Notes under the pieces: model-generated | Told to the model about the DNA's origin: nothing | Database searches by the model: none | What the model saw: the letters and a program-made list of their open reading frames with translations, nothing else | Part shown: one piece after another, positions 14,365-37,372 of the stretch | Layout: each line of letters starts with the position of its first letter | How positions within the stretch are numbered: position 1 is the first letter of the stretch | Source of the DNA: an uncultured Prevotellaceae bacterium | Lineage (GTDB): Bacteria; Bacteroidota; Bacteroidia; Bacteroidales; Muribaculaceae | NCBI GenBank assembly: GCA_900317835.1 | Contig: ONIL01000030.1 | Coordinates: 1 to 41,990 of the forward strand | Length of the DNA: 41,990 nt | Direction: 5' to 3' | Translations under genes and position numbers: made by a program

Positions 14365-15006
14365 TTAACGCACAATGATTGTAGAATACATTGGAAATAA
14401 GTCTGAGATCAAGAACGGTCGCGTGTCTGATGCTTGGATTCGTTCAATGAGTTTTGCAGTAAGGTTTGCATGGAATTCGTCATCAGGCGAATATCTGTTA
14501 AGGAGATTCCTGGATTCTTCGAATCTCCCTGCTTCTCGCAAAAGCTCGGCATTGAGCAAGACATCCAGTTGCTGTGACTCAAGAAGCAGGTCAATGATGC
14601 CGTGGAAGAAATCTTGTTCCTCTTGAATGATTGGCTTGGCATTCTCGCGGGTGAACTCGTCGTTGTACGCCCATACCAACATGAATAGTATGCTCAACCT
14701 TTCGCCTTCAGATAGTTCAGGGATTTCCTTTAACGAGTCCCACGCTTCTTTTATCTCGAAGTATGAGAGCTCGCCTAGCTCAAAGGAATAATCATCGCCG
14801 TACTCAGGTGTTTGTCGCGACATCAAGTAGAAACCGCCACAAGAAGGACACTTTTGAACGAATGATACCCTTGGGAGCATCGGTGCGATAGTTTTGTTGT
14901 CTGACCATACTTGTTGGCCAAATGTGTTACCTGAGAGCAGACTCAGGACCTCTTTTTTCGACCCGCAATGAGGACAAGTGAGGATTTGTGCATTACCTGG
15001 ATTCAT
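14365..15006 (-). CDS. Zinc-ribbon protein of unknown function
   Basis: Predicted cytoplasmic protein of 213 aa when started at ATG 15006; the longer frame adds 23 weakly plausible residues. The N-terminus has TCPHCGSKKE and later QKCPSCGGFY. This makes two C-x2-C knuckles about 40 residues apart that should bind one zinc, as in DUF2225-like zinc ribbons. The C-terminal two-thirds is helical, with FEESRNLLNRYSP resembling a tetratricopeptide hairpin. No export signal. The role is not known. Confidence 0.65.
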   Translation of the reverse strand: MNPGNAQILTCPHCGSKKEVLSLLSGNTFGQQVWSDNKTIAPMLPRVSFVQKCPSCGGFYLMSRQTPEYGDDYSFELGELSYFEIKEAWDSLKEIPELSEGERLSILFMLVWAYNDEFTRENAKPIIQEEQDFFHGIIDLLLESQQLDVLLNAELLREAGRFEESRNLLNRYSPDDEFHANLTAKLIERIQASDTRPFLISDLFPMYSTIIVR

Positions 15007-15154
15007 AGTTTTGATTGAATTAAAAACTTGTAAATATCTAAAATAAACTATTGTTTGGCTGGAATGAGCTCCCATAGTAGGTGGAATGCTGCCTTGTCAT
15101 AGTGACGACATCCCACCTTAGACTATGGAAAAGCATAACATTTCGTATCGACTT

Positions 15155-15994
15155 TTACAGTTTCCTTTCACTCCAGTAGCAAGCAAATACTTTTGTCATT
15201 TCCTCATCATCACATTCCTCGCTCATCTTGTCAAACTTTTTCCTCGCTTTCATTGAACCACGTGATAATGCGGCAGCTTCAACCAATCTTGCAGTTTTGT
15301 AACCACTCTCAAAAGGAACACTCATACCATTGGTCATCTTTGACAATTCGCGATACCAAGGTTCGTCAGTAATGGTGACTGTGTCAATCTTAATTTTCAA
15401 AGAAGCGGCTTTCTTTGCTTCTTCCCTCCAATCGATCCGGTTGTTAACAACAATGTTCTCATATGTATAGCCGACAGGATGCGGAGCAGCATCTGAAATC
15501 AGCAGAATAACACGGGTCGAATTCTCGCGCCAGGGTGTCTCTTCAACAATCTTCTTAATGACGAGCTCATAGAATTCGTCACCGTCGCCACCACTTGTGT
15601 CTTGCGATTCCATCACGAATTTCACTAACTCGTTTTCATTGTCTGTTGGCATGATGCACTGATATGCCTTGCCAAACTCTTGAGCATTTTTCATATCACA
15701 GTAATCACCAAAGGCTACAATACCGAGTCGAAGATCTTCATTGTCTTCGAACAGGCGAGGTATTAAGTCTGATACCTCTTTACGTACAGCTCCGATATAT
15801 GCTGCCATTGACCCTGTAGTGTCAAAAGCGATAACCATGTCTAAAACACCGATGGACTTAGGAGCTACCTTATTCAAGGATTTTTCGTCTTTCTTGTTGT
15901 CTGACTTGGGCTCCTCGATAATTGTCTCTTCTGTTGCGCTAGTGGCTTCAGCCTCTTTTGCGTCTGTCTTCTTGGAAATGTCTGATAATTTCAT
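15155..15994 (-). CDS. Cytoplasmic von Willebrand factor A (VWA) domain protein, sigma-regulon member
   Basis: A 279-aa protein without signal peptide. A charged, disordered N-terminus (1-45) is followed by a VWA domain (about 48-250). Its first beta-strand VIAFDTTGSM carries the MIDAS metal-binding DxTxS set (Asp58, Thr60, Ser62). The motif SGGDGDEFYE and the strand RVILLISDAAPHP supply the further MIDAS positions. Such domains bind protein partners through a divalent metal, for example in TerY-type or MoxR-linked systems. The gene is preceded by the shared TGTTTACATT promoter element and diverges from 16282-16731. It is distinct from the lipoprotein VWA at 24425. Confidence 0.8.
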   Translation of the reverse strand: MKLSDISKKTDAKEAEATSATEETIIEEPKSDNKKDEKSLNKVAPKSIGVLDMVIAFDTTGSMAAYIGAVRKEVSDLIPRLFEDNEDLRLGIVAFGDYCDMKNAQEFGKAYQCIMPTDNENELVKFVMESQDTSGGDGDEFYELVIKKIVEETPWRENSTRVILLISDAAPHPVGYTYENIVVNNRIDWREEAKKAASLKIKIDTVTITDEPWYRELSKMTNGMSVPFESGYKTARLVEAAALSRGSMKARKKFDKMSEECDDEEMTKVFACYWSERKL

Positions 15995-16126: not shown

Positions 16127-16157
16127 ATTAATACCCCATCAATAGAAAATGTAAACA
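16127..16157 (-). promoter_or_regulatory. Shared regulon promoter element (VWA gene)
   Basis: Minus-strand TGTTTACATT (16148-16157), 12 nt, GGTATTAAT (16127-16135). Same element as six others in this window, with one extra spacer base. It gives a leader of about 125 nt. It faces away from the copy at 16211. Confidence 0.75.
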
Positions 16158-16210: not shown

Positions 16211-16240
16211 TGTTTACATTCTTGTGATTGTGGTATAAAG
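16211..16240 (+). promoter_or_regulatory. Shared regulon promoter element (16282 gene)
   Basis: TGTTTACATT (16211-16220), 11 nt, GGTATAAAG (16232-16240), 41 nt before the start codon. Confidence 0.8.
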
Positions 16241-16809: not shown

Positions 16810-17715
16810 ATGAGCCAAAACGAAATCAACAATCAGTCAATGGAAGAGAACCCTGTGCCGGTTGACGAGATGAACGACCAGCAGCCAGATATTTACCTTG
16901 GTCCAACCAAGCCATCGTCGAATCTCAATGATGAGGAGGTGAATAATGGTGATGGTTTTACATTCAATTGGACCCAGCTAATCATTGGCGTGGCACTTAT
17001 TTGCTGGTTTTCCCTATCTGGTGGCCTTTTCTCAAACTGGTCCTTTTATGTTTTTCTTGGTATCGTGATTATCATTCACGAACTTGGCCATGTGGTCATC
17101 GGCAAGGCATTCGGCTGCTTTATCAAGGCAATGCAGGTCTTCTTCTTGCCCTTTGTGAGCTACAAGCCCAAACAGGTTCCTGGAGGAAGTTCTTGGCGCG
17201 ATATCACATGGAGCCTGGGCGTTTTGCCTTTGGGCGGAGTCACGATCTTTAAATCGCGTGAGCAGGAAGAGAGAGAAAAGGAGATGTGGTATTATCAAGA
17301 GCCGGAACAAGTCGAGCAGGAAGTGGAGTTGACAGCTGCCACGTCACCATATATCGACGACAAGCCTGCTTGGCAACGGCTACTCATCTCGGCTGCCGGT
17401 GTGCTGTTCAACTTTGCAACTTTCCTCATTCTGTACGTTATTATGCCCTTTGTTCCATTGGAGTGGTATAGTATTTTGGAGCCGTTGGCGATACTTTCGC
17501 TTCTGCTTGCAGTATTGAACGTGTTGCCGATTTATCCCCTTGATGGTGGTGCTATTGTGTTCGCATTGTTTGAGATTGTCACAGGCCAGAAACCTTCGCC
17601 AGCGTTCACCAAAGCGTGTGGCTGGATAGGAGCTATCATTGTCATTCTTTTGTTCTGGGTGTTCCCTGAGTCGCTGGATGGCATCCTGGGCAGTGTGTTC
17701 AAGGTCTTCTTCTGA
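16810..17715 (+). CDS. M50 family (site-2-protease-like) intramembrane metallopeptidase
   Basis: A 301-aa polytopic membrane protein. A hydrophilic N-terminus (1-52) is followed by hydrophobic segments at about 54-72 and 78-100. The latter carries the zinc-binding HELGH (His90, Glu91, His94). Later segments lie at about 187-215 (with AGVLFNF, the equivalent of the family's GPxxN region) and 222-258 (with NVLPIYPLDGG, Asp245 the third zinc ligand), plus a final helix at 268-285. No PDZ domain is present, unlike RseP; the 100-185 loop is charged. M50 proteases cut transmembrane substrates such as anti-sigma factors. Its position 1.6 kb from an ECF sigma/anti-sigma pair makes it a candidate for that step. 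Confidence 0.85.
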   Translation: MSQNEINNQSMEENPVPVDEMNDQQPDIYLGPTKPSSNLNDEEVNNGDGFTFNWTQLIIGVALICWFSLSGGLFSNWSFYVFLGIVIIIHELGHVVIGKAFGCFIKAMQVFFLPFVSYKPKQVPGGSSWRDITWSLGVLPLGGVTIFKSREQEEREKEMWYYQEPEQVEQEVELTAATSPYIDDKPAWQRLLISAAGVLFNFATFLILYVIMPFVPLEWYSILEPLAILSLLLAVLNVLPIYPLDGGAIVFALFEIVTGQKPSPAFTKACGWIGAIIVILLFWVFPESLDGILGSVFKVFF

Positions 17716-17818: not shown

Positions 17819-17848
17819 TGTTTACATTTTTCGATTTCTGGTATAAAA
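17819..17848 (+). promoter_or_regulatory. Shared regulon promoter element (17892 gene)
   Basis: TGTTTACATT (17819-17828), 11 nt, GGTATAAAA (17840-17848), 43 nt before the start codon. Confidence 0.8.
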
Positions 17849-17891: not shown

Positions 17892-18296
17892 ATGAAAAAG
17901 TTTATCATCATGTCGGTAATGCTGCTTTCAGCTATGGCCTCTGCTCAGGCTGGTAATGTACAATCAATGATTGCGACTTCTTTCAGCGTCAGGTATGTAG
18001 AAACCTCGTATTATGGTTCATACTGGACCGAGTGGTCTCGTAACATGAGCTGTTATCTCGATGTCTATATCGATACTCGCACTGACCAGATTATCATCGA
18101 CAGCCAGGAAATGCAGATTTACAATATTTACGCTGCAGGTAAGACTTATTATGATCGTCAACGAAATGAGTGTTGTGATTTCAAGGTCGTTGATCAAGAT
18201 GGCGATTATGGCACTATCACATTGAGAGCTGGAAGAAATTGGGCTCAGTTGTATGTCCGTTTTTCCAATATAGAGTGGATGTATGAAGTCAGATAG
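17892..18296 (+). CDS. Small exported protein of unknown function, sigma-regulon member
   Basis: A 134-aa protein with a clear signal peptide (MKKFIIMSVMLLS...ASAQAG, cut near 20). The mature part is rich in Tyr, Trp and acidic residues and looks all-beta: alternating strands such as SCYLDVYIDTRTDQIIID and GTITLRAGRNWAQLYVRF. Three cysteines (one in MSCYLD, an adjacent pair in NECCDF) could form a disulfide. No family recognised. A single-gene transcript is likely, bounded by the regulon promoter and a terminator. Confidence 0.75.
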   Translation: MKKFIIMSVMLLSAMASAQAGNVQSMIATSFSVRYVETSYYGSYWTEWSRNMSCYLDVYIDTRTDQIIIDSQEMQIYNIYAAGKTYYDRQRNECCDFKVVDQDGDYGTITLRAGRNWAQLYVRFSNIEWMYEVR

Positions 18297-18378: not shown

Positions 18379-18388
18379 GGAGAAAATA

Positions 18389-18420
18389 TTGAAAAATGTG
18401 AAAGAAAAACAATAACTTTG
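18389..18420 (+). promoter_or_regulatory. Housekeeping promoter of the caspase/sigma/anti-sigma operon
   Basis: TTG (18389-18391), 21 nt, TAACTTTG (18413-18420), 28 nt before the caspase start. The operon therefore seems made by the main sigma factor, not by its own sigma. Confidence 0.6.
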
Positions 18421-18448
18421 CAGATTGTTCATCACTATATAGGGCATT

Positions 18449-19321
18449 ATGAAGCGAGTTGTAATAATCATATTGGCTTTACTGGTAGTATCACCCTTTG
18501 CTTTTGCAAAGAAGCGGGCACTTCTTGTGGGTATATCCAAGTATAAAATGGATTGGACCACCATTCATGGAAGTGAAGATGTAGCATTATTAGAACCCGT
18601 ACTTATTAAACAAGGTTTCCAGGTGTCAACCTTGACTAACGCCCAAGCCACTCATGACGGTATTATCAAAGGCCTTAATACGCTGAAAACGCAGATAAAG
18701 AGAGGGGATATAGTGTATATCCACTTCTCAGCTCATGGTCAGCCGGTTGAAGATTATAACGGTGATGAAAAAGATAAATGGGACGAGGCGATAGTTCCAT
18801 ATGATGCAGGAAGTCATTTTTCTAAGGCATATAATGGCGATAAGCATATCATTGATGATGTGATAAACAAGTATGTGTCAGAAATGCGCAGGATATTAGG
18901 TCCCAAAGGAGCATTATATGTAGTGATTGATGCTTGCCATGCTGGAGGCTCATCGCGAGAAGGAGGGACGATACGAGGTTCTAACGAAGGTCTTTCACGC
19001 TCAAACAAGAAGTTTGATTTTAGAAATGCTGAAGACAATGGACATTATCAACTACAAAACAGCTCAGAACTGGCTCCTGCTGTGTTTTTTGAGGCTTGTA
19101 CGGCGAAAGAACGCAATAAAGAAATATTCGTCAAAGGGAAAGAGTATGGATCGCTTTCCTACATGGTATATTTAACGCTTTTGGATAAAAAGAATGGTAA
19201 GATTGGAGCTAAGCCAGATGCTTTTGAAAGAGCAGTTAGGTATATTGTCAATTTTTCGAACTACAAGTCCTTTTGGCCAAAAAGACAAACTCTTGTAACT
19301 GAATCAAGTTATAGAAACTAA
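18449..19321 (+). CDS. Exported caspase-like cysteine protease (peptidase C14)
   Basis: A 290-aa protein with a signal peptide (MKRVVIIILALLVV...AFA, cut near residue 20), so it should act in the periplasm. The p20-like caspase fold starts at RALLVGISKY. The catalytic dyad is visible: His96 in IHFSAHGQ and Cys163 in VVIDACHAGG. The acidic segment EDYNGDEKDKWDEAIVPYDA between them is typical of metacaspase-like enzymes. It is the first gene of an operon with the ECF sigma gene (6-nt gap) and the membrane anti-sigma-like gene. An exported caspase next to a transmembrane anti-sigma suggests a site-1 cleavage role; this is inference. Confidence 0.88.
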   Translation: MKRVVIIILALLVVSPFAFAKKRALLVGISKYKMDWTTIHGSEDVALLEPVLIKQGFQVSTLTNAQATHDGIIKGLNTLKTQIKRGDIVYIHFSAHGQPVEDYNGDEKDKWDEAIVPYDAGSHFSKAYNGDKHIIDDVINKYVSEMRRILGPKGALYVVIDACHAGGSSREGGTIRGSNEGLSRSNKKFDFRNAEDNGHYQLQNSSELAPAVFFEACTAKERNKEIFVKGKEYGSLSYMVYLTLLDKKNGKIGAKPDAFERAVRYIVNFSNYKSFWPKRQTLVTESSYRN

Positions 19322-19327
19322 TATAAT

Positions 19328-19900
19328 ATGGGAGAGAATCTTAATAAATTCTTTGCTGAGAATAGAGAAAGGACACTTGCTTTTTTGCGCAAGCGTTTCA
19401 GTGCACTTGGTGAAGAAGATCTAAAGGAAGTTTATCAAAACTCCAGTCTTGCTCTATGCGAGAATTTATTGGCAGGCAAATATGAGGAACAGAATGCTGG
19501 ATTGAACACCTATTTCCTTCGCATTTGCATCAATCAGGCCCTGAAGTCGGTGAGTAAATCTGGCATCTTGGTGCCTCTTCCTGAGAATGCCAACTTGGGT
19601 GGCGATGGAGATTATATAGATGATAAAATAGATGAGCTTATCAACTTCATCTATGAGGTTGAAGGTTATGATGAGCATGAAAGGCTACGGACAGAAAATC
19701 TTGTTCGTGCAATTATGAAAGAACTCTCTGAGAAATGCCAGGACTTATTGTGGGGCCACTATGGTGACGGTCTTTCATGGGAGGTCCTTGCTGACATGTA
19801 TGGATTGGCGAATGCAAATTCGGCTAAAAGCACGGCCAATGGTTGCCGAAATAAATTCAGGGATTTGTTTATCGAAAAAAAAGCAATTATTTATGGATAA
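19328..19900 (+). CDS. ECF-type RNA polymerase sigma factor
   Basis: A 190-aa sigma-70 family factor of the two-domain type. Sigma-2 (about 8-75) includes FLRKRFSALGEEDLKEVYQN and the -10-recognition region LNTYFLRICINQALKS. A long acidic linker (about 88-115, GGDGDYIDDKIDEL) leads to sigma-4 (about 125-180), whose helix-turn-helix, near LSWEVLADMYGL and the NGCRNKFRDLF helix, would read the -35 element. It sits between the caspase and a membrane protein whose start overlaps its stop by 8 nt, the usual sigma/anti-sigma arrangement. It is the best candidate to recognise the TGTTTACATT/GTATWAA promoters around it. Confidence 0.85.
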   Translation: MGENLNKFFAENRERTLAFLRKRFSALGEEDLKEVYQNSSLALCENLLAGKYEEQNAGLNTYFLRICINQALKSVSKSGILVPLPENANLGGDGDYIDDKIDELINFIYEVEGYDEHERLRTENLVRAIMKELSEKCQDLLWGHYGDGLSWEVLADMYGLANANSAKSTANGCRNKFRDLFIEKKAIIYG

Positions 19901-20681
19901 CAATTATCTAATAGAACTCTATCTTAAGGGACAACTCTCCCAAGAGGAAGAACAGAATTTTCGTGAGCGATTGAAAACTGATAAGGCTTTACGTGATATG
20001 GTCCTTGCTGAAGCACTCATGATCAAGAATATGAAACAGCGTAACCAGGAGAGAGAAAAAGCCATATTGGAAGAATCCATCAAAATAGCAGAAGAAAAAC
20101 CAGCTGCACACAGAGCCGAGGCAGAGGCAGAGAGAAGAAGGGTAGCTGCAGAAGAGATTCCCCCTGCAGCATCAATTCCCCCTGCAGCATCAAGGCCAGC
20201 GGCATCAGGACGACCTTGGATATATTGGGCATCATCGATAGCTGCTGTTCTTATCATTGGATTCATTGCAGTTAAGCCAATCTATTTCAATTATAAGTCT
20301 GACCAGATGATATCTCAGAACTATGCTCAGTGGTCGCCACATGAAGAAGGCACAACTAAAGGGACCTCTCGTGGCGAAGTCAGAGCTGGTGAGAATGTGG
20401 TGGCCGAACTAACTGAATTGTTTGATAACGTCGGTAAGGGTAAGGACATGAAGATGACAACCTATCGTTTGGAAAAAGCTCTCCAAGAAAGTGCAACCGA
20501 TTATGAATACTACCAGTATTCAGATGATATTATGTGGTATCTGGCATTGGCTTACATACAGAATAACCAGTTTGGGAAAGCCCGAACGGAATTAACTAAG
20601 ATAATAAGAAGTGGTGATTCTTATTACTTGGAGAAAGCCGAGAAACTGTATAAGGAGATAGAAAACATGTACTTCATGTAG
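19893..20681 (+). CDS. Single-pass membrane protein: anti-sigma-like N-terminus and periplasmic TPR-like domain
   Basis: A 262-aa protein translated from ATG 19893, overlapping the sigma stop codon. Residues 5-50 form the short helical pattern LIELYLKGQLSQEEEQNF that heads many Bacteroidetes anti-sigma proteins. A charged Ala/Glu-rich linker and PPAAS repeats (55-105) lead to one transmembrane helix (about 108-130). The C-terminal 130 residues contain a TPR-like hairpin (DDIMWYLALAYIQNNQFGKA). With N-terminus inside and C-terminus in the periplasm, it could hold the sigma factor and be cut from outside. The same N-terminal motif recurs in the small gene at 20804. Confidence 0.78.
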   Translation: MDNNYLIELYLKGQLSQEEEQNFRERLKTDKALRDMVLAEALMIKNMKQRNQEREKAILEESIKIAEEKPAAHRAEAEAERRRVAAEEIPPAASIPPAASRPAASGRPWIYWASSIAAVLIIGFIAVKPIYFNYKSDQMISQNYAQWSPHEEGTTKGTSRGEVRAGENVVAELTELFDNVGKGKDMKMTTYRLEKALQESATDYEYYQYSDDIMWYLALAYIQNNQFGKARTELTKIIRSGDSYYLEKAEKLYKEIENMYFM

Positions 20682-20749: not shown

Positions 20750-20779
20750 TGTTTACATTTTTTGATTTCTTGTATAAAT
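20750..20779 (+). promoter_or_regulatory. Shared regulon promoter element (mini anti-sigma gene)
   Basis: TGTTTACATT (20750-20759), 11 nt, TGTATAAAT (20771-20779), 24 nt before the start codon at 20804. Confidence 0.8.
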
Positions 20780-20803
20780 AGATGTAAGAGAAAATATGAT
20801 AGT

Positions 20804-21019
20804 ATGTCACAGAAACTTTATACATCAGCGCACATAGACCGTTATCTTCAAGGTAAAATGACACCAAGAGAAGAACGTGATTTTTTATTGTATATAAAAC
20901 AGAATTCTAGATTTCGAAATATAGCCTTGATTAAAGTACTTTTCATTAAGCAGATAAAGGTATATTATTCAAAAGTGACCAATACAAATCATGATAGACA
21001 CACTGATACCGACATGTAA
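20804..21019 (+). CDS. Small soluble anti-sigma-like domain protein
   Basis: A 71-aa basic protein without signal peptide or membrane segment. Residues 10-52 (HIDRYLQGKMTPREERDF onward) align without gaps to residues 6-48 of the membrane anti-sigma-like protein upstream, with 14 of 43 identical, including the YL.G, EE, F and IK positions. It thus looks like that N-terminal domain alone. Its gene has the regulon promoter and sits alone between terminators, so it could bind the sigma factor and shut the response off. Confidence 0.7.
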   Translation: MSQKLYTSAHIDRYLQGKMTPREERDFLLYIKQNSRFRNIALIKVLFIKQIKVYYSKVTNTNHDRHTDTDM

Positions 21020-21109: not shown

Positions 21110-24100
21110 CTAATCGAGGGCGTCAAGAAGGATGAAAGCCGCCCAATCTTGTGGATCCGGGTACTGCTGCATGATGATTGACTGTGCCTTTTTGAGAGCC
21201 TCCATTTTAGTCTTGCCTGATGTCCATTGGCGATAAAACTCAATCATGAACTTCGATGTCACCTCATCGTCAACTACCCACAGGCTCATCAGGATGGAAT
21301 TAGCTCCAGCCTTCTTGAAACCTCGCTGTAGGCCGAATACACCTTCACCGTTGACTACATCACCAAGAGCCGTTTGGCAGGCACTGAGTACCACAAGATC
21401 AAGTCCACGAAGGTCAGTTTGTGCAATCTCTAGGGCGTTGAGGATACCGTCATCTTGGCCATAGGCAGGCAGACCTTTTCCGGTAATCACTTGATTGGCG
21501 CCAGCAAAGCACAATCCGCATCGCTGCAGAGACTGGTCTTCAATATAAGAGGGTCCATCATCGCCCATAAGCATCATGCGTATGTGTTCGCTCTTATTCT
21601 CCGTTTCTTCCTCGTTAAAGTAGAATCCATGAGTCGAAATATGGATTAGAGATTTACGCTGCCCTGATAGCGCTTTGAATGACTCTTCGGTTGCTTGACT
21701 TCCTGATATGATTGGGTCACATTTTTTAATCTTGGCGTTCTCCGTTTTTAACAACGATGAAATCGCTAGTACTTCTTTACTTGAGAAGGGAAGTGGATCA
21801 ATGCTATCACGTAAGGAACGTATGGTACCGAGACTGAATCCACCACTTTGAGTTTCTGCATAGTCGATTATACTTGGCTCGCTCAAAACGGCAGATTTAA
21901 GCGATGCATAGGATGCATTGTAATCAATACCTCCAAAAAGAGCTGCACTCTTACTCACTTCCCTCTGCTTGTGTGTTACTAGCTCGCGGGTTGAAGACAA
22001 TCTGTAGCAATCTTTCCCCTCCATGCTAGGGAGATATTCGATACCAATGTTATGCAGCATTCCAGTAGCCGAGAAGTAGACGTTTGACTTATCTTCCAAT
22101 CGAGAATCAAGAGCCCCCCAGATTAGCTCATCAACTAATAAGTTCAAATAAGTATTCTCATCACCTGCTAATAACTGCAACTCCCATCCCGAGACTAATG
22201 GAGTTAAAACTGGTGCCGTATCGTTCTTGCACAGTGTAAGCGCTGCATAAGCATATGTGTTATCGAGTTCTGGATATATAATGAATTCTATTGCAATATC
22301 AGAGTCATTTAACTTACTCTGAACATCTTTCCATGTAATATTCAAATTGCGAGTATAGTCTCCAAACTCTTTAGTACGAGAAACAAGTTGGCGTTCGAGA
22401 TTCGAAGTAACCCATTCAAGTGAATCGCAGTCAATAAGGCGTTCTGTTATAGGTTTAGAGTATTGAGCGCTCAGTACCTGTCTGTTCTGGTGGAGTTCAG
22501 AATACATTTGTTGGGCTTTAACATCTCCACTTTCCAGAATGAGTTTCGTCATCTCCTGTTCGGTCAGTAATAACAGTCCTTTGGAGAAAAGTGCAGTATT
22601 ATCATATAGAATCGAAGGTGCGTCAGGTACCTTTGAGTGAATTAATACTCCAGGCATCAAATAATTTAGTTTGGTACTGTGTTGAACCCAATAATTAAAT
22701 CGTTCATTGGATGTTAATCCTGAGAATGTGTGTAACACATCATTTCGAACAATTGTGATATACTCCCTTGCTAAAGGGCTGGACTTGATGAAATCAGCGT
22801 TGTATGCATAATAGTACGCAAGATTGCTCAACAAAGTCATGTACTGAGTATTTTTGACGCCCAACGTCTGTTTCGTTATTTCTAATGCTTCTAACCCTAG
22901 TTGAATGGCTTTCTTAAAATTGTTATTATAAAAGTGATAAGTGCTTAGATTAGAAAGAGAAATTGCATAATCTGGGTCTTGTGACCCTGATCTTGATTTT
23001 TTAAGTTGAGCAGTTCTTTCTCCGAATTGTATTGCTTTTTTATACTCGTTATTGTATGCGTAATAGTTGGCTATATTGCTAAGTAATGTGGTATAATAAG
23101 GATTGTTTGTATTCTGAGTTTTATCAAAAATCTCTTTCGCTTTTAACCCAAATTGTATGGCCTCATTGTGTTTTCCAATATGAGCATTGCAATTTGCTAA
23201 ATTAGCCAATGTCATGGCACATTCAAGGCTTTCTGTATCAGAAAGCCTTGTGCGAATATCCAATGCTTTCATCCCTAACTTTAAACCTTCTTGATAATTA
23301 CTTATATGAGCAAAATAGGCAGCAAGGTTATTTAAAGCCATCGCATAACTAAGACTCTCTGTTACATGAAGTTTCTCTAGTATCCTGATTGACTCTAGTT
23401 CTAATTGTATCGCGTCGTTGTAGTTACCAAGGAGGGCATGGTAATTAGAAAGGTCATTTGCGACTGTGGCGTATTCAAGTGATTCTATTTCATTAATTAC
23501 TTTTAATAATCCCAGACTCTCACGACCAAAATTCAGTGCGTGGTCATAGTCCTTAAGAAAGAAGTAATATTTAGCTAATGTATATAATAACATTGCGTAA
23601 TCATGGTCTTTTCCTCCTCCTTCCATTGATTTTTTTATGTCGATGGCTTCTGTCGTGTAGCTAATAGCTTGTGGATACTCGTTCAAACTTGCGTAGGTTT
23701 CTGCTAGGTTCTTTAGCGCGGATAAATAGTAAACACTATTTTCACCTGCAAGTTCTTTGATGATATCTTTATACTTTGAATAATAGGTGGCTGCATCTTT
23801 AAATTTATTAAGTTTTGTATAATAGAAGGCAATACTTGCTAATGAAAATGCATAGTACTGATCTTCAGGACCTAATAAGCTCTTGATGAGAGAATTTGCT
23901 TCAAATGCATATGTAATAGCTTGTTTATAATTTCCAGCGTCGCCATTGAAAGTTGCAAGATCGTTTAATTGTTGTACATAAAGCAGATGATTTGAGCGAT
24001 AAACTGTCTTATAAATCTTGGCTGCTTCCGATGCAGCACTTATTGCTGCGTTATAATCTTCAAGCTGATAACACAATCTACCTAATGCGGCCATATACTG

Positions 24101-24316
24101 GGCATAAATAGTATCTCGAGAAATACTCTTCTTATTGATATCTCTATATAATTTAAGGGCATAATCGTAGTTTGTACGTGCTTCAGTAAGGTCCCCAGAT
24201 AAGTAAGCATAGTTTGCCTGTAAGAGATAAGAGTCCATTAAGTCTTCTCTCTCGTCAGCCATGATGATGGGAACTATGCCAACAAGGCAAAATAAAATGG
24301 TCAATATACGTTTCAT
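21110..24316 (-). CDS. Exported TPR-CHAT protease
   Basis: 1068 aa from ATG 24316, which begins a signal peptide (MKRILTILFCLVG...IMA). About eleven TPR units of roughly 42 residues of the kinesin-light-chain type follow (about 25-520). After a helical linker comes a C-terminal CHAT domain (caspase HetF-associated, about 740-1068). The catalytic dyad is present: His896 in ISTHGFYF and Cys980 in VLSACQTALGD. TPR arrays usually sense or bind a partner that switches the protease. It is a paralogue of the larger gene at 28778. Its promoter is housekeeping-type and its leader is shared with that paralogue. Substrate unknown. Confidence 0.9.
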   Translation of the reverse strand: MKRILTILFCLVGIVPIIMADEREDLMDSYLLQANYAYLSGDLTEARTNYDYALKLYRDINKKSISRDTIYAQYMAALGRLCYQLEDYNAAISAASEAAKIYKTVYRSNHLLYVQQLNDLATFNGDAGNYKQAITYAFEANSLIKSLLGPEDQYYAFSLASIAFYYTKLNKFKDAATYYSKYKDIIKELAGENSVYYLSALKNLAETYASLNEYPQAISYTTEAIDIKKSMEGGGKDHDYAMLLYTLAKYYFFLKDYDHALNFGRESLGLLKVINEIESLEYATVANDLSNYHALLGNYNDAIQLELESIRILEKLHVTESLSYAMALNNLAAYFAHISNYQEGLKLGMKALDIRTRLSDTESLECAMTLANLANCNAHIGKHNEAIQFGLKAKEIFDKTQNTNNPYYTTLLSNIANYYAYNNEYKKAIQFGERTAQLKKSRSGSQDPDYAISLSNLSTYHFYNNNFKKAIQLGLEALEITKQTLGVKNTQYMTLLSNLAYYYAYNADFIKSSPLAREYITIVRNDVLHTFSGLTSNERFNYWVQHSTKLNYLMPGVLIHSKVPDAPSILYDNTALFSKGLLLLTEQEMTKLILESGDVKAQQMYSELHQNRQVLSAQYSKPITERLIDCDSLEWVTSNLERQLVSRTKEFGDYTRNLNITWKDVQSKLNDSDIAIEFIIYPELDNTYAYAALTLCKNDTAPVLTPLVSGWELQLLAGDENTYLNLLVDELIWGALDSRLEDKSNVYFSATGMLHNIGIEYLPSMEGKDCYRLSSTRELVTHKQREVSKSAALFGGIDYNASYASLKSAVLSEPSIIDYAETQSGGFSLGTIRSLRDSIDPLPFSSKEVLAISSLLKTENAKIKKCDPIISGSQATEESFKALSGQRKSLIHISTHGFYFNEEETENKSEHIRMMLMGDDGPSYIEDQSLQRCGLCFAGANQVITGKGLPAYGQDDGILNALEIAQTDLRGLDLVVLSACQTALGDVVNGEGVFGLQRGFKKAGANSILMSLWVVDDEVTSKFMIEFYRQWTSGKTKMEALKKAQSIIMQQYPDPQDWAAFILLDALD

Positions 24317-24389
24317 CTTGATATGGATTATGTTATGGTAATAAAGGCCCATGATTTGGTCATGAGCCCCATGAACTACCGCAAAGGTA
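24317..24389 (-). promoter_or_regulatory. Promoter and conserved leader of the first TPR-CHAT gene
   Basis: Minus-strand TACCTTTG (24382-24389) lies inside an inverted repeat CTACC-GCAAA-GGTAG. It is followed by a leader with an imperfect GGCCCATGA/TCATGAGCC hairpin and an in-frame upstream ATG (24352). Both features recur before the second CHAT gene at 33866-33937. Confidence 0.6.
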
Positions 24390-26546: not shown

Positions 26547-26576
26547 CTTTATACTACAAGTCAAAAAATGTAAACA
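26547..26576 (-). promoter_or_regulatory. Shared regulon promoter element (coiled-coil/VWA operon)
   Basis: Minus-strand TGTTTACATT (26567-26576), 11 nt, AGTATAAAG (26547-26555), 41 nt before the chosen start. Divergent from the copy at 26620. Confidence 0.8.
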
Positions 26577-26619: not shown

Positions 26620-26649
26620 TGTTTACATTCTGCCAACAATGGTATTAAG
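26620..26649 (+). promoter_or_regulatory. Shared regulon promoter element (lipoprotein/DUF3298 operon)
   Basis: TGTTTACATT (26620-26629), 11 nt, GGTATTAAG (26641-26649), 51 nt before the start codon. Confidence 0.8.
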
Positions 26650-28777: not shown

Positions 28778-31700
28778 TTAGTCAAGAGCATCCAAAAGAA
28801 TGAAGGCCGCCCAATCATGTGGATCAGGGTACTTCTCTTTAACTATAGATTGGGCATTACGTAGGGCAGCAGTCTTGGTCATGCCTGATGTCCAGCCTCG
28901 ATAGAACTCAGTCATGAATAAATGGGTGACCTCGTCATAAACCTCCCATAAACTCATAAGGATAGACTGAGCACCAGCTTTTTTGAAACCACGCTGTAAG
29001 CCGAATACGCCTTCTCCATCAACAACGTCACCGAGAGCCGTTTGGCATGCGCTCAATACGACTAGATCTAATCCGCGAAGGTCCATTTGGGCGATCTCAA
29101 GAGCATTGAGGATTCCATCATCTTGTCCTGCAGAAGGTTTGCTTTTATCGGGAAGGGTATCACAAATAGCTAGTTTTGCCCCTGCGAAGCATAACCAACA
29201 GCGAAGCAATGATAGGTCTTCGTAATGTATGGGTCTACCATTACCAATGAGCATACTTTGTAGATGGCCATTGAGATTCTCTACTTCTTCGTCACTATGG
29301 TAGCATCCATGTGTGGATATATGAATTAAGGATTTGCGTTGACCCGATAGAGCTTTGAATGATTCCTCACTTGCCTGGCTGCCAGATAAGGGATTGCAAG
29401 CCGCACCGACGCTATCTAGCATAGCTTTTATTTCTTTTATTTCTTCATAAGAGCCAGTAAGAGGACCAAAATCATAACGTAGTTTCGATTTGTAGTCAAA
29501 TTGTCCCCGATGTCGACTAGGTACAGCATTCATTGCAATATAGTCCTTAACGTATGTTGGCGCTGAGGATTCGATTGAGTCATAAGTTGCATCATATTTA
29601 ATACCTCCAAAAATTGTGGCAGTAGTAGCACTGCCAATGGGTTGAGCAGGCTGATGTGTCACTAACTCTCGGGTAGAGGATAGCCTATGGCAATCTTTTC
29701 CCTCCATGCTTGGTAAATACTCAATGCCAATGCTATGAAGCATCCCAGTAGCAGAGAAATAGACATTGGATTTGTCTTTTAATCGGTTGGAAATCGGCTC
29801 CCATACCAATGAGTCGGTAGAGAAATTCTGATATGAGTAATCACTTCCTTCTGCTTCTTTCAACTGTGATTCTGTAAACAAAGATGTCAATATTGGTTCA
29901 GTATCAGTCTTACAAAGAGTAAGCGCTACGTAAGCTGTCTCTTTATTTTTTTCACGGTAAGAAAGAAACTCAATGGCGATATCGTTATCTCCCAGCTTGT
30001 TTTGGACATCTCTCCATGTGATGCTCAAATTTCGAGTATAGTCACCAAAAGCCTTGACGCGAGATGTCAACTGACGTTCTAAGTTTGCCGATATGAGTTC
30101 GAGCGAATCGCAATTAAGAGTTCGCTCTAGGAAAGGCTTTAAATACTGAATATTTAGTAATTGTTGGTTTTTACGGAGTTCAGAATAGAGCTGAATTGCT
30201 TCAGTATCACCACTTTCATGAATCAGTTTGGCCATCTCCATTTCGGTAGACAGAAGCAGACCCTTAGCAAAAAGTGCTGTATTGTCGTATAGTATTGAAG
30301 CTGCATCACTTATTCCAGAATGAACAAGTGATCTCGGAATCCAGGAATTAAAGGCATAACTATAGTTGTCCCAATATAAAAAGCGTTCGTTCGCTGTCAA
30401 TCCAGAAAAAGTTCTTAAAACATTTTTACGGATAATAGTCATATATTCGTTTAATAGAGGCACCGTTTCCAAATAATCTCCTTGCTCATAATAGTAATCA
30501 GCAAGATTGCTCAAAGATTTAGCATAATCAGGATGCTCTTGCCCACATGCTATTTTGGAAACTTGTTTTGCTTTTGTGCCTAACTCTACAGCCTTATTAT
30601 TGTCTCCTAGATTAGAGTAGCATTGTGCTAGATTATTCAAGGTCAAAGCATATTCAGAGTGCTCTTCTCCAAGTAGTCCCTTTTGGATTTTCAATGCTTT
30701 GTTAAGCAGTTCGATAGCTTTTTTATAATTGCCTTGATGGATATATTCGCCAGCAAGATTATCTAAAGCTAGTGCATAAAGTGGATGATTCTCTCCAAAT
30801 GCCTTCTTGCGAATTTTCAAAACCTGATTTTCAAGTTCAATTGCTCTTTTGTGATTACCAAGGGCAGAGTATAGTCCTGCTAGATTGTTCAATGAAGTGG
30901 CATAATCAGGATGTTGCTCACCAAGAATTCTTCTTTGGATATCTAGTGCTTGGTTTCCATAATCACTCGTTTTAACATAATCGCCAATATAGAAATAATA
31001 ATATGCCAGGTTATTTAATGAATTAGCAAAATCAATATGATTTTTGCCTAATACTGTCTTTCGAATTTCTAACGCTTTTGTTGTTAGTTCTATAGCTTTT
31101 GTGTGGTCGCCAAGTGCAGAGTAGTAACTTGCTAGGTTGTTTAATGTACCAGCATACTCCGAATTCTCTTGTCCTATAGCTTTTTGGTATATATTCAATG
31201 CTTTTGAAGCGAGTTCAATGGCTTTATCATAGTCGTTAAAACAAGCATAATCGTATGCCAGGTTGCTCAATGTTGTGGCGTAATCAGGATGGTCCGTTCC
31301 TAATGATTTCTGCCGGATATTCAAGACTTGAGTTTCAAGTTGAATCGATTTTTCATAGTTACCAAGGCATGAGTAATAATGCGCAATGTTGCTAAGCGAT
31401 TTGGCATATTCAGGATGTAGATCTCCTAAAAACTTTTGACGAATGTTTAACGCTTCAGTTCCATATTGAATTGCTTTCGAATAGTTTCCAAGAGCAGAAT
31501 GATAAGTTGCAAGGTTGTTTAATGATGTTGCACAGCTTGGATGATTATCCCCTAATACATTCTTGCGTATTTCTAATGCCTGTGTAGCGAATGTAATAGC
31601 TGAATTATAGTCACCCAGATTGGCATAACACCCAGCAAGGTTACTAAGCGAAGTTGCATAACTAAGACGCCCTTCACCGGTAGTATTATTTTGAACCTCT

Positions 31701-33865
31701 ATTGCCTGAGTGCAAAGTTCAATCGATTTTTGATAATTTCCAAGATAGGAATAATAAATTGCAAGGTTATTCAATGAAAAGGCATAATCCGGATGGTTCT
31801 CCCCCAATACCTCTTTCCTGATCTCCATTGCTTGGTTTTCTAATTCAATGGCTTGTGAATATTTTCCGAGATCAGCATAATACCCTGCCAGGTTGCTCAG
31901 CGAAACAGCATAACTAGGGTGCTTTTCACCCAAAAGTCTTTTTTTGATTTCCAAGGCTTGGGTAGCAAGTTCTTTGGCTTTCTCATAGTTGCCAGATTCT
32001 GAATAAAATGAGGCGAGGTTACTTATTGTATTTGCATAAAGAGGATGATCTTCTCCTAATATACGCCTATCTAACTCCAAAACTTTTGTTCCTAATTCAA
32101 TGGCTTTAGAATAATCTCCAAGTTTAGAGTAATAACTAGCTAGATTGTTTATTGATGTGGCATAAAGAGGATGTTCTTCTCCGAATACTATCTTTCGGAT
32201 TTCTAAAGCTTGAGTCGCAAGTTCTATAGCTTTTGTATAATCGCCTAGCTCTGAATAATAACCTGCTAGATTGTCTAGTGTTGTAGCATAACTGGGATGA
32301 AATTCACCTTGTTTCTTCTTCTGAATCTCTAACGCCTGAATTGCATATTTTACGGCCATTTCATAGTTGCCCATGTGAGAATAATAAAAACCGAGATTGC
32401 TTAAAGAAGTTACATAATCAGAATGCTCCCCACCCAAGACTTTTCTACGAATATCCAAAGCATGACTTCCAAGTTCAATTGCTTTTGAATTGTTTCCAAT
32501 TGCGGAATAATACCCCGCAAGGTTGTCTAAAGAGGTAGCATAATTTGGGTTATTATCTCCAAAAAAATAGTTATTGATTTCCAGAGCTTTAGTTCCTAAT
32601 TCAATAGCTTTTGTATAGTTCCCGAGATTTGAGTAATAGCCTGCAAGGTTGTCTAAAGAAACAGCATAATCTGGATGTAAATCTCCAAATTGTTTTTTCT
32701 TGATCTCCAAAGCCTGTGTTGTAAGTTCAATTGCTTTTTTATCATTACCAAGATAAGAATAACAACTTGCAAGATTGTTGAGTAACACTGCATAGTTGGG
32801 ATGGTTCTCGCTTAAAACTGTCTGATGTATTTTTAAGGCTTGGGTGCCAAGGTCAAGAGCCTTCGCATAATCGCCATATTTTGTATAATAACTCGTAAGA
32901 TTGCTTAGAGATAAGGCGAAATCTGGATGATTCTCCCCAAGTATCGTCCGTTGTGTTTCTAAAGCTTGAGTCCCGAGTTCTATAGCTTTCTCATAGTTAC
33001 CAGACTCAAAATAAAAAGAAGCGAGGTTGCTCAATGTTGTCAAATAAAGAGGATGTGTTTCGCCTAGAACTTTTTTGCGTATATCAAGAGCCTGAGTACA
33101 GAGCTCAATGGCAGTATCGTGGTCGCCTAAATTAGAATAACAGCAGGCAAGGTTGTTTAACGAAGTAGCACAATCGGGGCTTTGCTCGCCTAGCGTGTTC
33201 TTACGGATTTCCCAAGCAAGATTTCCAAGTTCAATTGCTTTTTCATAGTTTCCAAGATTAGAATAGTATAGAGCTATCAGATTCAACGAAGAAGCATATT
33301 CGGGATGCATTTCGCCTAATTCATTACGTTGCAATTCTAAAACTTTAGTTTTGAATTCAATTGCTTTTTCATAGTTTCCAAGATTAGAATAATAAAGAGA
33401 TAATAGATTTAATGAAGTTCTATAATCCTCATCATCTACGCCCAAAACTCTTCTCTCTAATTCTAAAGCTTGCGTTTGAAGTTCGATAGCTTTCTCTTCA
33501 TTTCCAAGATGGTGATAATCCAATGCTAACTTTTCCAATGAGGATATATAATTGGGATGTTCTATTCCATAGATTTTTCGTTGTAATTCAACAGCGCGTG
33601 TTCCGTAGTAGATTGCCTCATTATAGTTCCCAAGTTGAGAATGGCATGTAGTCATAAAGGTTAATATTGCTGCGAAATCTTCATCTTCAATTGAAGCCTT
33701 TTCCATTTCTTCTACCAGATCAGTTCCAACGATAACTGCTTGCTCATAATTCCTATTATTAAAATAATCTAAGAATGTTGTGGCTTTAACCAAATCAAAG
33801 TTTTGAGCACAAATTCCAAAGGAAAAATTTATTGTAACTAATATGAATGCCAAAAAACGTTTCAT
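28778..33865 (-). CDS. Giant exported TPR-CHAT protease with 25 tandem TPR repeats
   Basis: 1695 aa from ATG 33865, which opens a signal peptide (MKRFLAFILVTINFSFGICAQ). Residues 77-1126 are 25 consecutive units of exactly 42 residues with the consensus LGNYxKAIELxTQALEIRK, then LGExHPxYATSLxNLA. A linker and a C-terminal CHAT domain (about 1370-1695) follow, with the dyad His1519 (ISTHGCYH) and Cys1607 (VLSACQTALGD). The last 90 residues are close to those of the paralogue at 21110. The long superhelix suggests recognition of a large or extended partner. Convergent with the DUF3298 gene (26-nt gap). Confidence 0.92.
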   Translation of the reverse strand: MKRFLAFILVTINFSFGICAQNFDLVKATTFLDYFNNRNYEQAVIVGTDLVEEMEKASIEDEDFAAILTFMTTCHSQLGNYNEAIYYGTRAVELQRKIYGIEHPNYISSLEKLALDYHHLGNEEKAIELQTQALELERRVLGVDDEDYRTSLNLLSLYYSNLGNYEKAIEFKTKVLELQRNELGEMHPEYASSLNLIALYYSNLGNYEKAIELGNLAWEIRKNTLGEQSPDCATSLNNLACCYSNLGDHDTAIELCTQALDIRKKVLGETHPLYLTTLSNLASFYFESGNYEKAIELGTQALETQRTILGENHPDFALSLSNLTSYYTKYGDYAKALDLGTQALKIHQTVLSENHPNYAVLLNNLASCYSYLGNDKKAIELTTQALEIKKKQFGDLHPDYAVSLDNLAGYYSNLGNYTKAIELGTKALEINNYFFGDNNPNYATSLDNLAGYYSAIGNNSKAIELGSHALDIRRKVLGGEHSDYVTSLSNLGFYYSHMGNYEMAVKYAIQALEIQKKKQGEFHPSYATTLDNLAGYYSELGDYTKAIELATQALEIRKIVFGEEHPLYATSINNLASYYSKLGDYSKAIELGTKVLELDRRILGEDHPLYANTISNLASFYSESGNYEKAKELATQALEIKKRLLGEKHPSYAVSLSNLAGYYADLGKYSQAIELENQAMEIRKEVLGENHPDYAFSLNNLAIYYSYLGNYQKSIELCTQAIEVQNNTTGEGRLSYATSLSNLAGCYANLGDYNSAITFATQALEIRKNVLGDNHPSCATSLNNLATYHSALGNYSKAIQYGTEALNIRQKFLGDLHPEYAKSLSNIAHYYSCLGNYEKSIQLETQVLNIRQKSLGTDHPDYATTLSNLAYDYACFNDYDKAIELASKALNIYQKAIGQENSEYAGTLNNLASYYSALGDHTKAIELTTKALEIRKTVLGKNHIDFANSLNNLAYYYFYIGDYVKTSDYGNQALDIQRRILGEQHPDYATSLNNLAGLYSALGNHKRAIELENQVLKIRKKAFGENHPLYALALDNLAGEYIHQGNYKKAIELLNKALKIQKGLLGEEHSEYALTLNNLAQCYSNLGDNNKAVELGTKAKQVSKIACGQEHPDYAKSLSNLADYYYEQGDYLETVPLLNEYMTIIRKNVLRTFSGLTANERFLYWDNYSYAFNSWIPRSLVHSGISDAASILYDNTALFAKGLLLSTEMEMAKLIHESGDTEAIQLYSELRKNQQLLNIQYLKPFLERTLNCDSLELISANLERQLTSRVKAFGDYTRNLSITWRDVQNKLGDNDIAIEFLSYREKNKETAYVALTLCKTDTEPILTSLFTESQLKEAEGSDYSYQNFSTDSLVWEPISNRLKDKSNVYFSATGMLHSIGIEYLPSMEGKDCHRLSSTRELVTHQPAQPIGSATTATIFGGIKYDATYDSIESSAPTYVKDYIAMNAVPSRHRGQFDYKSKLRYDFGPLTGSYEEIKEIKAMLDSVGAACNPLSGSQASEESFKALSGQRKSLIHISTHGCYHSDEEVENLNGHLQSMLIGNGRPIHYEDLSLLRCWLCFAGAKLAICDTLPDKSKPSAGQDDGILNALEIAQMDLRGLDLVVLSACQTALGDVVDGEGVFGLQRGFKKAGAQSILMSLWEVYDEVTHLFMTEFYRGWTSGMTKTAALRNAQSIVKEKYPDPHDWAAFILLDALD
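30488..33637 (-). repeat. Tandem 126-bp coding repeats (25 TPR units)
   Basis: Twenty-five units of 42 codons in perfect register inside the second CHAT gene, with no indels between units. Positions A8, L19, G27 and NLA are strongly conserved. The regular length suggests expansion by unequal recombination. Confidence 0.9.
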
Positions 33866-33937
33866 GTCAATATGGGTTATGTTATGGTAATTAAGGCCCA
33901 TGATTGTTCATGGGCCTCATGAACTACCGCAAAGGTA
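33866..33937 (-). promoter_or_regulatory. Promoter and conserved leader of the second TPR-CHAT gene
   Basis: Minus-strand TACCTTTG (33930-33937) lies in the same CTACC-GCAAA-GGTAG inverted repeat as for the first CHAT gene. The leader holds a perfect 9-bp hairpin, GGCCCATGA-TTGT-TCATGGGCC (33895-33916), overlapping an in-frame upstream ATG (33901). Confidence 0.65.
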
Positions 33938-35332: not shown

Positions 35333-37372
35333 TTAACGTCCATCTCCAGAATTGGAGATTCTCAATACCTGGTCGTGATTGTCTATCTCGATGCGTCCCA
35401 GTCGGCTGAGTACAGTTTGACCGAGCAGGAGTGGGGCCTTTTGGTTGCGGACGACGGAGGCTCTGACGTTCTTGAGGTTGAAATCACCGAAGTCAACGCT
35501 CTTCAAGTTGATGACGGTGCCGACACTGATGTCTCCGTTGGCATCAACAAATCGCTGGCTTCCGATAACATCGCTGCTTGAGAGGTAACCATTCTTCATC
35601 ATGAAGTTGGCTTCGACCAGGGAAATACTAACATCGCAGGCACCGGTGTCGAACACGAAGTGAAGCGGCAAACCGTTTATCTGGCATTTGACGGTGCATA
35701 CACCGCTCTCCTTGGTGAAGGGAACTTCACCGACCTTTAGCTCGGCTGGCTCCTTAGTGACCACACCAGGTTGGTTGTCCTGTTTATGCAATGCCATATG
35801 CCTCTCAATGAGCTGCTTGTATTCCTCGCTGTCACGAATGAAGTCAAGATAGGAATCCCGTTCAAAATGGGCGAAACGGTGATATCCCATTTCGAGTGCT
35901 TTTTCGAGGAACTTCAAAGCATTGGCTTTGTCCTGCATTCTGGAGTATAGGCATGCAGCGTCGTAATAGTTGCCGGCGTCGGTGCTATCACGAGAGATGG
36001 CAACGTTCAATTCTTCAATGGCTTTGTCATTTTGACCCAGTCCTTGATAAGCAAGGTATCTGCAATCATACTCATCCTGGTTAATCTCGAGTTCAATGGC
36101 CTTCTTGTAATCGGCTTCGGCCAGGTCAAGTTTGCCTTGTTTGAAATAGACGTCGCCACGGGTACAGTACGTGTAGGCATACAACGGATCCAGAACGATT
36201 GACATGGACAGGTCTTCAACAGCTCCTTCGTGATCACCGTTCAGTTCTTTGTACCAGCCCCGACGGTACCAACCCCAAGCATAGTCAGGTTCCTCTTTGA
36301 GCAGCTGATCCCATTCGGCAATCGACAATTCTGCTTTCCCCATTTCATAATAGATGTTGGCCCTGTACATCCTGCTATAGAAGTCGGTGCTGTCGAGATT
36401 CAGCGACTTGTTGATGTTGTCTAATGCCTGATCGAACTGGTTCAACTCGAGATAACAGAGTGCGATGTTTTGATAGCCTATCGGAGAAACGTCGATGTCG
36501 ATCGCCTCAGTATAGCTCTGAATGGCCTTTTGGTACTGTTTGTTCTCCTCATAGATGAGCCCACTTAAGTAGGGCCACATGGGCGAATTGGGCGACTTCG
36601 CTGCCTGTACTTTAAGTTTTGAGAGCAGGATAGTCAGTCCAGGCTCTTTGATTGTAGTCGCCAACGACAATGCTTTCTGATCCCATGCCAGCGTAATGGC
36701 CGAGATGATGTCGTCTGCGACCTGATCCCATTTTTCAAGGCCCATATACGCTTCGGCGCGCAAAGCGTAACTCGAGGAATTGCCGCTATTTAGTCTGACT
36801 GCATAATCCAGATGTTTAACGGCATTATCCCATCGTTTTTGGATGTTGGCAATTTGACCAAGACCCAGATATCCCAGAACGTTGCCAGGTTCTAAAGCAA
36901 TGATTTTTCGGTAGTCCGCATCAGCGAGGTCATACTTTTTCTGCTCAACATAAATCTGGGCACGGTCATAGAGCAGAAATGTATTCTTGGGTGCGATGTG
37001 GATTGCTGTGGAATAATCTTCTACAGTCTTAATGGTGTCTTTAAGAATTAGGTACACCTTAGCTCGTGTTGTGAGGCCAAATACCATATATTCGGTATCC
37101 TTTTTCGGCAGATACTTGAGTGCTTTGTCAGCAGCAGTCAGGGCCATGCCATATTCCTTCATGTCAAACCTGACTTTAGCGATCCAGGAGAATGCATACC
37201 CGTTTTTAGGATTCTCAGTCAACTCCCGATTGAGGTAATCAAGTGCTTCTGAGATATTCTCATTTTGGACGGCTTCAACACCACGGAGATAGTTGTAGGA
37301 TTCGGGACGCTTTTGTGCATAAGTTGTAATGTTGATTAGCAACAGCACGATAATCAATAGTTTTGGTCTCAT
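35333..37372 (-). CDS. Exported TPR protein with C-terminal retropepsin-like aspartyl protease, sigma-regulon member
   Basis: A 679-aa protein with a signal peptide (MRPKLLIIVLLLINITTYAQ). About thirteen TPR units of 34 residues (about 25-530) are of the ordinary type (YCTRGDVYFKQGKLDLAEAD). The C-terminus (about 545-679) is a single retropepsin-like domain. It has HFVFDTGACDVSIS (catalytic Asp575-Thr-Gly) and PLLLGQTVLSRLGRIEID, the flap-distal Gly motif. Such proteases act as dimers; this one would act in the periplasm. The gene carries its own copy of the regulon promoter (37436-37465), so it is an output of the system, unlike the CHAT proteases. Confidence 0.85.
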   Translation of the reverse strand: MRPKLLIIVLLLINITTYAQKRPESYNYLRGVEAVQNENISEALDYLNRELTENPKNGYAFSWIAKVRFDMKEYGMALTAADKALKYLPKKDTEYMVFGLTTRAKVYLILKDTIKTVEDYSTAIHIAPKNTFLLYDRAQIYVEQKKYDLADADYRKIIALEPGNVLGYLGLGQIANIQKRWDNAVKHLDYAVRLNSGNSSSYALRAEAYMGLEKWDQVADDIISAITLAWDQKALSLATTIKEPGLTILLSKLKVQAAKSPNSPMWPYLSGLIYEENKQYQKAIQSYTEAIDIDVSPIGYQNIALCYLELNQFDQALDNINKSLNLDSTDFYSRMYRANIYYEMGKAELSIAEWDQLLKEEPDYAWGWYRRGWYKELNGDHEGAVEDLSMSIVLDPLYAYTYCTRGDVYFKQGKLDLAEADYKKAIELEINQDEYDCRYLAYQGLGQNDKAIEELNVAISRDSTDAGNYYDAACLYSRMQDKANALKFLEKALEMGYHRFAHFERDSYLDFIRDSEEYKQLIERHMALHKQDNQPGVVTKEPAELKVGEVPFTKESGVCTVKCQINGLPLHFVFDTGACDVSISLVEANFMMKNGYLSSSDVIGSQRFVDANGDISVGTVINLKSVDFGDFNLKNVRASVVRNQKAPLLLGQTVLSRLGRIEIDNHDQVLRISNSGDGR

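Follow-up and report, generated by a model that had tools for sequence, protein, structure and literature searches.

The 41,990-nucleotide stretch analysed here (the window: positions 1 to 41,990 of contig ONIL01000030.1, assembly GCA_900317835.1, from an uncultured Prevotellaceae bacterium with a genome of 3.07 Mb in 65 contigs) contains at 18449-20681 a tight three-gene operon encoding a signal-bearing caspase, an extracytoplasmic function (ECF)-type sigma factor and a single-pass membrane protein that looks like an anti-sigma factor. Caspase, sigma, membrane protein and a gene for a CHAT protease are a conserved linked module in the family to which the window belongs. We propose, with a probability of about 55%, that this module is an envelope switch in which the caspase would act as site-1 protease and release the sigma, so that it could transcribe the local cluster. 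The fuller version, in which an extracytoplasmic caspase (with CHAT) would be the site-1 protease, the freed sigma would drive its own proteolytic cluster and an anti-sigma-like protein without transmembrane (TM) segment would provide feedback, is put forward at slightly less than even odds. Bacterial caspases are widespread and, to our knowledge, few of them have known substrates. Here the substrate, the bond, the released transcription factor and the promoters are all proposed from sequence alone; if the proposal is true, exported bacterial caspases gain a defined substrate, cut site and output, and caspases are placed in regulated intramembrane proteolysis, as a non-CRISPR envelope counterpart of Csx29/Csx30/CASP-sigma.

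The linkage was evaluated by searching 297 genomes of the window's family (28 for the sigma query and 73 for the caspase query, at an E value of 0.001 or better). We fetched the surroundings of every other caspase match at E 3.4e-27 or stronger (37 places) and of one caspase paralogue, together with 22 sigma places that had no caspase match of this strength or had yet to be tested for one; a relative from the yak omasum, the 'Bacteroidaceae bacterium' metagenome-assembled genome (L124; L numbers designate loci), was added. Weaker caspase matches (beyond 3.4e-27) lie outside the locus set, and one of them (7.4e-16) falls within L088. With the window counted, there are 38 caspase-selected loci, of which 18 are unlimited, i.e., have no contig end within 8 kb: sigma and anti-sigma accompany the caspase in all 18, and CHAT as well in 17. 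Over all 38 loci, many of which are cut by contig ends, a sigma is found in 35, an anti-sigma in 35, a CHAT in 30 and all four genes in 29. Eight sigma-selected loci (L124 and seven others) were left out of this count and kept for the cleavage-site and promoter counts below, which refer to 46 caspase loci. The gene order varies in these 46 (caspase-sigma-anti-sigma-CHAT in 12, sigma-anti-sigma-caspase-CHAT in 10, CHAT-sigma-anti-sigma-caspase in 6, and others) while the set stays linked, which argues for a functional unit. The converse fails, as several sigma/anti-sigma pairs occur without caspase and CHAT. An earlier sequence-only reading of this DNA had asked whether the caspase-sigma-membrane protein order is conserved with an M50 and a CHAT gene: the linkage of the first three genes with CHAT is borne out, the order is not fixed, and the M50 gene, encoded in 32/32 genomes but linked in 1/32, namely the window, where it lies behind a shared promoter-like motif, was rejected as a core component. 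In a sample of the phylum (395 genomes, caspase profile in 61, 30 loci fetched), sigma, anti-sigma or CHAT accompanies the caspase in 0/29 loci besides the window (family hidden Markov models (HMMs), E 0.001, within 1.5 kb); therefore, the linked set is seen only in the window's family. The best caspase matches in other families of the phylum (L146-L151) are in proteins of about 670-710 residues without sigma neighbours, and no sigma lies near the second caspase of the window's genome (region L098).

The operon itself is as the sequence-only reading described it. The caspase gene (C14, 290 residues; 18449-19321, plus strand) matches PF00656 with E 3.7e-14 and 53.4 bits, the cut-off being 21.4. 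For the divergent product of the sigma gene (19328-19900, plus strand), a Pfam search gave no match at E 0.05, and NCBIfam TIGR02937 (sigma70-ECF) matches below its cut-off (E 2.9e-9, 36.8 bits vs. 42.9). A profile of 10 family sequences matches the solved structures of SigW (E 3.5e-8, positions 34-181) and RpoE (4.6e-5), and the match to SigW supports homology to ECF sigma regions 2 and 4. Within the family, Sigma70_r2 is matched in 17/30 members and each region-4 model in 1/30, the window sigma matching none of them. In the viral contigs searched, no relative of the sigma was found. The gene for the membrane protein (262 residues; 19893-20681, plus strand) most likely starts at ATG 19893, overlapping the sigma stop by 8 nucleotides. 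Its resemblance to anti-sigma factors, already suspected from the sequence, is supported by the NCBIfam 'anti-sigma factor' model NF052375, which matches the window protein weakly (23.4 bits, E 4.9e-5) and, at a threshold of E 0.01, 31/51 members of its family. The protein consists of a helical N-domain, a TM segment at about 109-131, an unordered linker with Arg160-Gly161 and a TPR domain at about 164-260. Hydropathy and a structure model built from the window and L124 sequences, with a mean predicted local distance difference test score (pLDDT) of 67, indicate one TM segment with a separate domain beyond it, which would face the periplasm. In the model the linker corresponds to residues 148-170 of the 267-residue construct (pLDDT < 50), between the TM helix and the TPR domain. 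A PDB search with the anti-sigma family returned weak matches only, mostly to TPR proteins.

The candidate cut site is located in this linker. In a first alignment of 38 anti-sigmas, the stretch following the TM segment is highly variable and a single Arg, usually followed by Gly, is kept in 34. The Arg-Gly idea was set down first, and 20 more sigma loci were then fetched as a later sample, in which Arg-Gly occurs within 60 residues of the TM segment in 4/7 caspase-linked and 0/7 caspase-less proteins. In the same place, the other three linked proteins carry Arg-Ala, Arg-Asn and Arg-Ser, and therefore the pattern was widened to Arg plus Gly, Ser, Ala or Asn, located +19 to +38 from the TM segment on its outer side. 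This widened form is present in 7/7 linked and 0/7 caspase-less proteins of the later sample and, overall, in 39/43 linked and 0/9 caspase-less ones; in 1000 shuffles of the linkers it appears on average in 10.8 and at most in 20 of the 43. Arg-Gly within 60 residues gives 34/43 and 0/9 overall (shuffled mean 7.0, maximum 15). A looser pattern, [RK][GSAN], discriminates little (41/43 linked, with a shuffled mean of 18.9, and 4/9 caspase-less). The four linked proteins outside the widened form carry Lys-Gly (L063 and L095), Arg-Asp (L087) or an Arg-Gly further out (L094); L131, a caspase-less sigma within a caspase clade and with no anti-sigma candidate, is outside all of these counts. The conserved Arg of the outer linker may be where the caspase cuts the anti-sigma. 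A separate observation concerns the caspase-less sigma/anti-sigma clade (L099, L100, L125, L126, L127, L133, L140, and L144), whose linkers have a LADEYN-like segment in place of the Arg site (LANEYN in L133, IANEYN in L125).

The caspase has features that fit such a cut. His96 and Cys163 are kept in 39/39 aligned caspases, window included, and its PDB relatives are 3bij and metacaspases. By alignment, Asp44, Ser94, and Asp161 would correspond to TbMCA2 Asp95, Ser156, and Asp211, described in the available part of PMC4357240 as belonging to a potential S1 pocket; the same portion gives MALT1 Asp365, Asp462, and Glu500 as setting P1 Arg specificity. These acidic S1-type residues, present in 47/47 linked caspases, are compatible with cleavage after Arg. 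The protein starts with a signal-like segment, from which export is predicted. Arg176-Gly177 of the caspase was considered as an autoprocessing site peculiar to this system and discarded, the Arg being found also in 28/30 unlinked caspases. A caspase structure model was poor (mean pLDDT 53.7) and was set aside. The EACC1-associated caspase model NF047832 does not recognize the window caspase (16.9 bits vs. a cut-off of 140).

Two other roles have to be weighed for these proteases. TPR-CHAT could make the first cut at the Arg, with the caspase acting upstream, by activating CHAT, or as a separate effector. Separase relatives cut after Arg, the CHAT His/Cys pair is kept in 32/33 proteins, and CHAT is found in all but one of the unlimited caspase-selected loci. 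In addition, the accessible sections of PMC10028731 report that Csx29, a TPR-CHAT protein, cleaves the sigma inhibitor Csx30. However, no CHAT is seen in L097, nor in L088, a locus cut short by a contig end, although both retain the caspase and the Arg site, and for this reason CHAT is less favoured as site-1 protease. Thus, of the earlier suggestion that caspase or CHAT enzymes perform this step, a conserved candidate cleavage point has emerged and the CHAT option has lost ground; we regard CHAT-first cleavage as unlikely, though the least unlikely of the alternatives. Alternatively, caspase and CHAT might kill the cell as part of an anti-phage or cell-death conflict system, as suggested by a match to the PADLOC caspase model (7.1e-10) and by caspases being common conflict effectors, according to the consulted part of PMC8195603. 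The PADLOC match is, however, confined to the caspase domain, the enzymes carry signal-like sequences, and a scan of 8 window proteins found no other defence protein beyond TPR-repeat protein matches, all of which makes a conflict system very improbable.

Returning to the envelope switch, we infer export by the signal sequence, topology, sigma binding, cleavage, protease order and the signal as follows. The N-terminal domain of the single-pass anti-sigma would keep the sigma at the inner membrane until an envelope signal arrives, for which the periplasmic TPR domain is a possible sensor. This signal would enable the exported caspase to cleave the anti-sigma behind Arg160, in the flexible linker on the outer side of the membrane and close to it. 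An intramembrane cut by an M50 site-2 protease would follow and release the sigma, which would transcribe the genes behind TGTTTACATT-N12-GTATWAA, here those of the surrounding cluster, among them the local M50 gene, a CHAT operon and a truncated anti-sigma. The latter is encoded by a second anti-sigma-like open reading frame (ORF) at 20798-21019 (plus strand), which resembles the N-domain, has no TM segment and lies directly behind a copy of the motif; the match to the family HMM (E 9e-15) is on the 20762-21019 frame. Its product, possibly a feedback inhibitor or a remnant, could damp the response.

The motif emerged from a repeat analysis in which near-identical elements were seen ahead of several window operons. 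The whole 3.07-Mb genome has exactly five copies of TGTTTACATT-N12-GTATWAA, which sit together in a stretch of about 10.4 kb that includes the sigma gene, and the reversed-pattern control has none. They lie at 16211-16239 (plus strand, before a 167-residue ORF and the M50 gene), 17819-17847 (plus, before a 134-residue secreted protein), 20750-20778 (plus, as TGTTTACATT-N12-GTATAAA, before the 20798-21019 ORF), 26548-26576 (minus, before a 413-residue TM protein, a 287-residue protein and CHAT1, whose gene is the third behind this copy) and 26620-26648 (plus, before a 265-residue and a DUF3298 protein). A copy with a spacer one base longer is found at 16128-16157 (minus, before the vWA gene), and one with two mismatches at 37437-37465 (minus, before the TPR-aspartyl protease gene); another two-mismatch copy lies elsewhere in the genome (contig C40). 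A relaxed motif gives 29 sites against 1 in the control in the 46 caspase loci, 27 of them intergenic, with at least one site in 13 loci, and 2 sites against 1 in 16 caspase-less loci. The spacer is 12 or 13 bases in 31/34 sites (9-15 allowed), as for -35/-10 pairs. The motif stands ahead of vWA genes, directly or heading the gene string, in the window, L079, L088, and L095, and ahead of the whole CHAT-sigma-anti-sigma-caspase operon in L073 and L077. In a family-wide scan with a stricter motif, 100/297 genomes have at least one match, many of them scattered single copies; owing to these and to matches of the reversed control, only clustering beside caspase loci is informative. A de novo search for bipartite motifs (three shuffles each) recovered 5 regions in the window against 3 in shuffled sequence; in most other loci the number recovered did not exceed that of the shuffles by two or more.

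We take the motif to be read, presumably, by the sigma of the locus. It might belong to another regulator instead, since several of the loci with the most similar sigmas lack it. Against this speak the confinement of the five exact copies to the surroundings of the sigma, the recurrence of the motif in 12 other caspase loci and the nearly constant spacer, and we consider such a regulator quite unlikely. A further explanation is that caspase and CHAT are outputs of a switch that is set off by some other protease or by a non-proteolytic route, with the Arg serving as a docking or structural residue. The motif ahead of protease-containing gene strings in L073, L077, and L070 and the position of the window CHAT1 operon behind a copy agree with this idea. 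On the other hand, the window caspase operon has no motif, and the Arg site tracks caspase linkage (39/43 vs. 0/9) in an otherwise variable, unordered linker; this explanation therefore appears improbable, marginally more so than a first cut by CHAT. A search of the region upstream of the caspase operon (18380-18425) found no copy of the TGTTTACATT motif; the same interval on the plus strand holds, from its sequence, a probable housekeeping promoter of the caspase-sigma-anti-sigma operon, with TAACTTTG at 18413-18420, assigned by its likeness to TAnnTTTG, which we take to be the Bacteroidota -7 motif. Housekeeping-like TAnnTTTG boxes are present at the window caspase and CHAT genes; together with the relative L124, such boxes point to the Bacteroidota as the probable phylum of the organism.

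Several observations weigh against caspase cleavage as the trigger of a sigma-driven switch. The Arg-Gly pattern was defined after viewing an alignment and the Arg-plus-small form was widened after the first counts; when 75 residues are scanned under different filters, Arg-Gly is found in 32/40 linked and 1/7 caspase-less proteins (L132, at +63). The caspase-less comparison spans few lineages, that is one sigma clade of eight plus L132, and therefore represents few independent events. Asp44, Ser94, and Asp161 are each present in 29/30 unlinked caspases as well, so that the S1-type residues belong to the caspase family at large, as does Arg176-Gly177, and do not single out this system. Of 25 caspases tested, 4 show no hydrophobic segment in the 45 residues ahead of the domain, although in L080 and L097 such a segment is present at residue 3. 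The NF052375 score of the window anti-sigma is far from reaching the cut-off of 100, and nothing convincing in the PDB matches the N-domain. Finally, the M50 gene is linked in the window only, and the motif occurs in 13/46 caspase loci, with no copy in L062, L063, L064, L066, and L067, which are among the loci with the closest sigmas.

The arrangement recalls known systems without coinciding with any of them. It shares with RseA/RsiW-type intramembrane proteolysis, in which a site-1 protease is followed by RseP, an ECF sigma, a single-pass anti-sigma-like protein with an outer domain, and M50 proteases encoded in all the genomes tested; unlike in those systems, the candidate site-1 protease is a caspase with a conserved Arg-small site, and the outer domain is a TPR domain. 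With Type III-E CASP (Cas7-11/Csx29/Csx30/CASP-sigma), as presented in the accessible sections of PMC10028731, it has in common a caspase-like protease, a sigma inhibitor and an ECF sigma together, and also sigma motifs inside the locus, three being reported there. The differences are that the proteases here are signal-bearing (CHAT1 begins with a signal-like sequence, unlike the cytoplasmic TPR-CHAT of Type III-E), that the inhibitor is a membrane protein and that the main candidate protease is a C14 caspase. No Cas protein was found by Pfam among 20 window proteins, no genome-wide or dedicated array search having been made; TPR regions of window proteins match PrimPol models weakly. Caspase genes beside sigma genes are known from Myxococcus and other genera, where metacaspases share operons with sigma-70 genes (PMC3501461), and from EACC2-caspase neighbourhoods with ECF sigma (PMC8195603); the available parts of these accounts describe neither a membrane anti-sigma nor a CHAT partner, and no cleavage site or promoter motif either. 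Among the papers listed by searches of the open literature, none was found to describe such a gene set, most subscription papers and all bioRxiv preprints being outside the search.

The remaining genes of the cluster include candidate targets of the sigma. The M50 metalloprotease (16810-17715, plus strand; PF02163, E 3.4e-29) is site-2-protease-like and is both a candidate target and the candidate site-2 protease; its start lies 1.64 kb ahead of that of the caspase, in agreement with the 1.6 kb noted earlier. Further putative targets are the 134-residue protein (17892-18296, plus), predicted to be secreted from its sequence features and preceded by the motif, the vWA protein (15155-15994, minus; PF00092, E 1.7e-8), and a TPR-retropepsin-like aspartyl protease (35333-37372, minus; PF13975, E 4.5e-14). 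The two TPR-CHAT proteases previously placed downstream, CHAT1 at 21110-24352 (PF12770, E 6.1e-46) and CHAT2 at 28778-33901 (E 3.9e-44), are indeed there; both genes are on the minus strand, opposite to the caspase operon, and hence outside it. The strand of the CHAT genes, the TM-less anti-sigma-like ORF and the promoter-like repeat are additions to what the sequence-only reading contained. CHAT2 (1707 residues) has a long array of 42-residue TPR units, seen as 126-nucleotide DNA repeats. The vWA protein is 70-73% identical in caspase loci L079, L088, and L095, and its 236-residue neighbour (14365-15075) recurs in L093 and L095. The TPR-retropepsin-like gene recurs near caspase loci L076, L079, L084, and L095. 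Past the end of the cluster, at 37763-38410, lies a gene for a resolvase-family recombinase.

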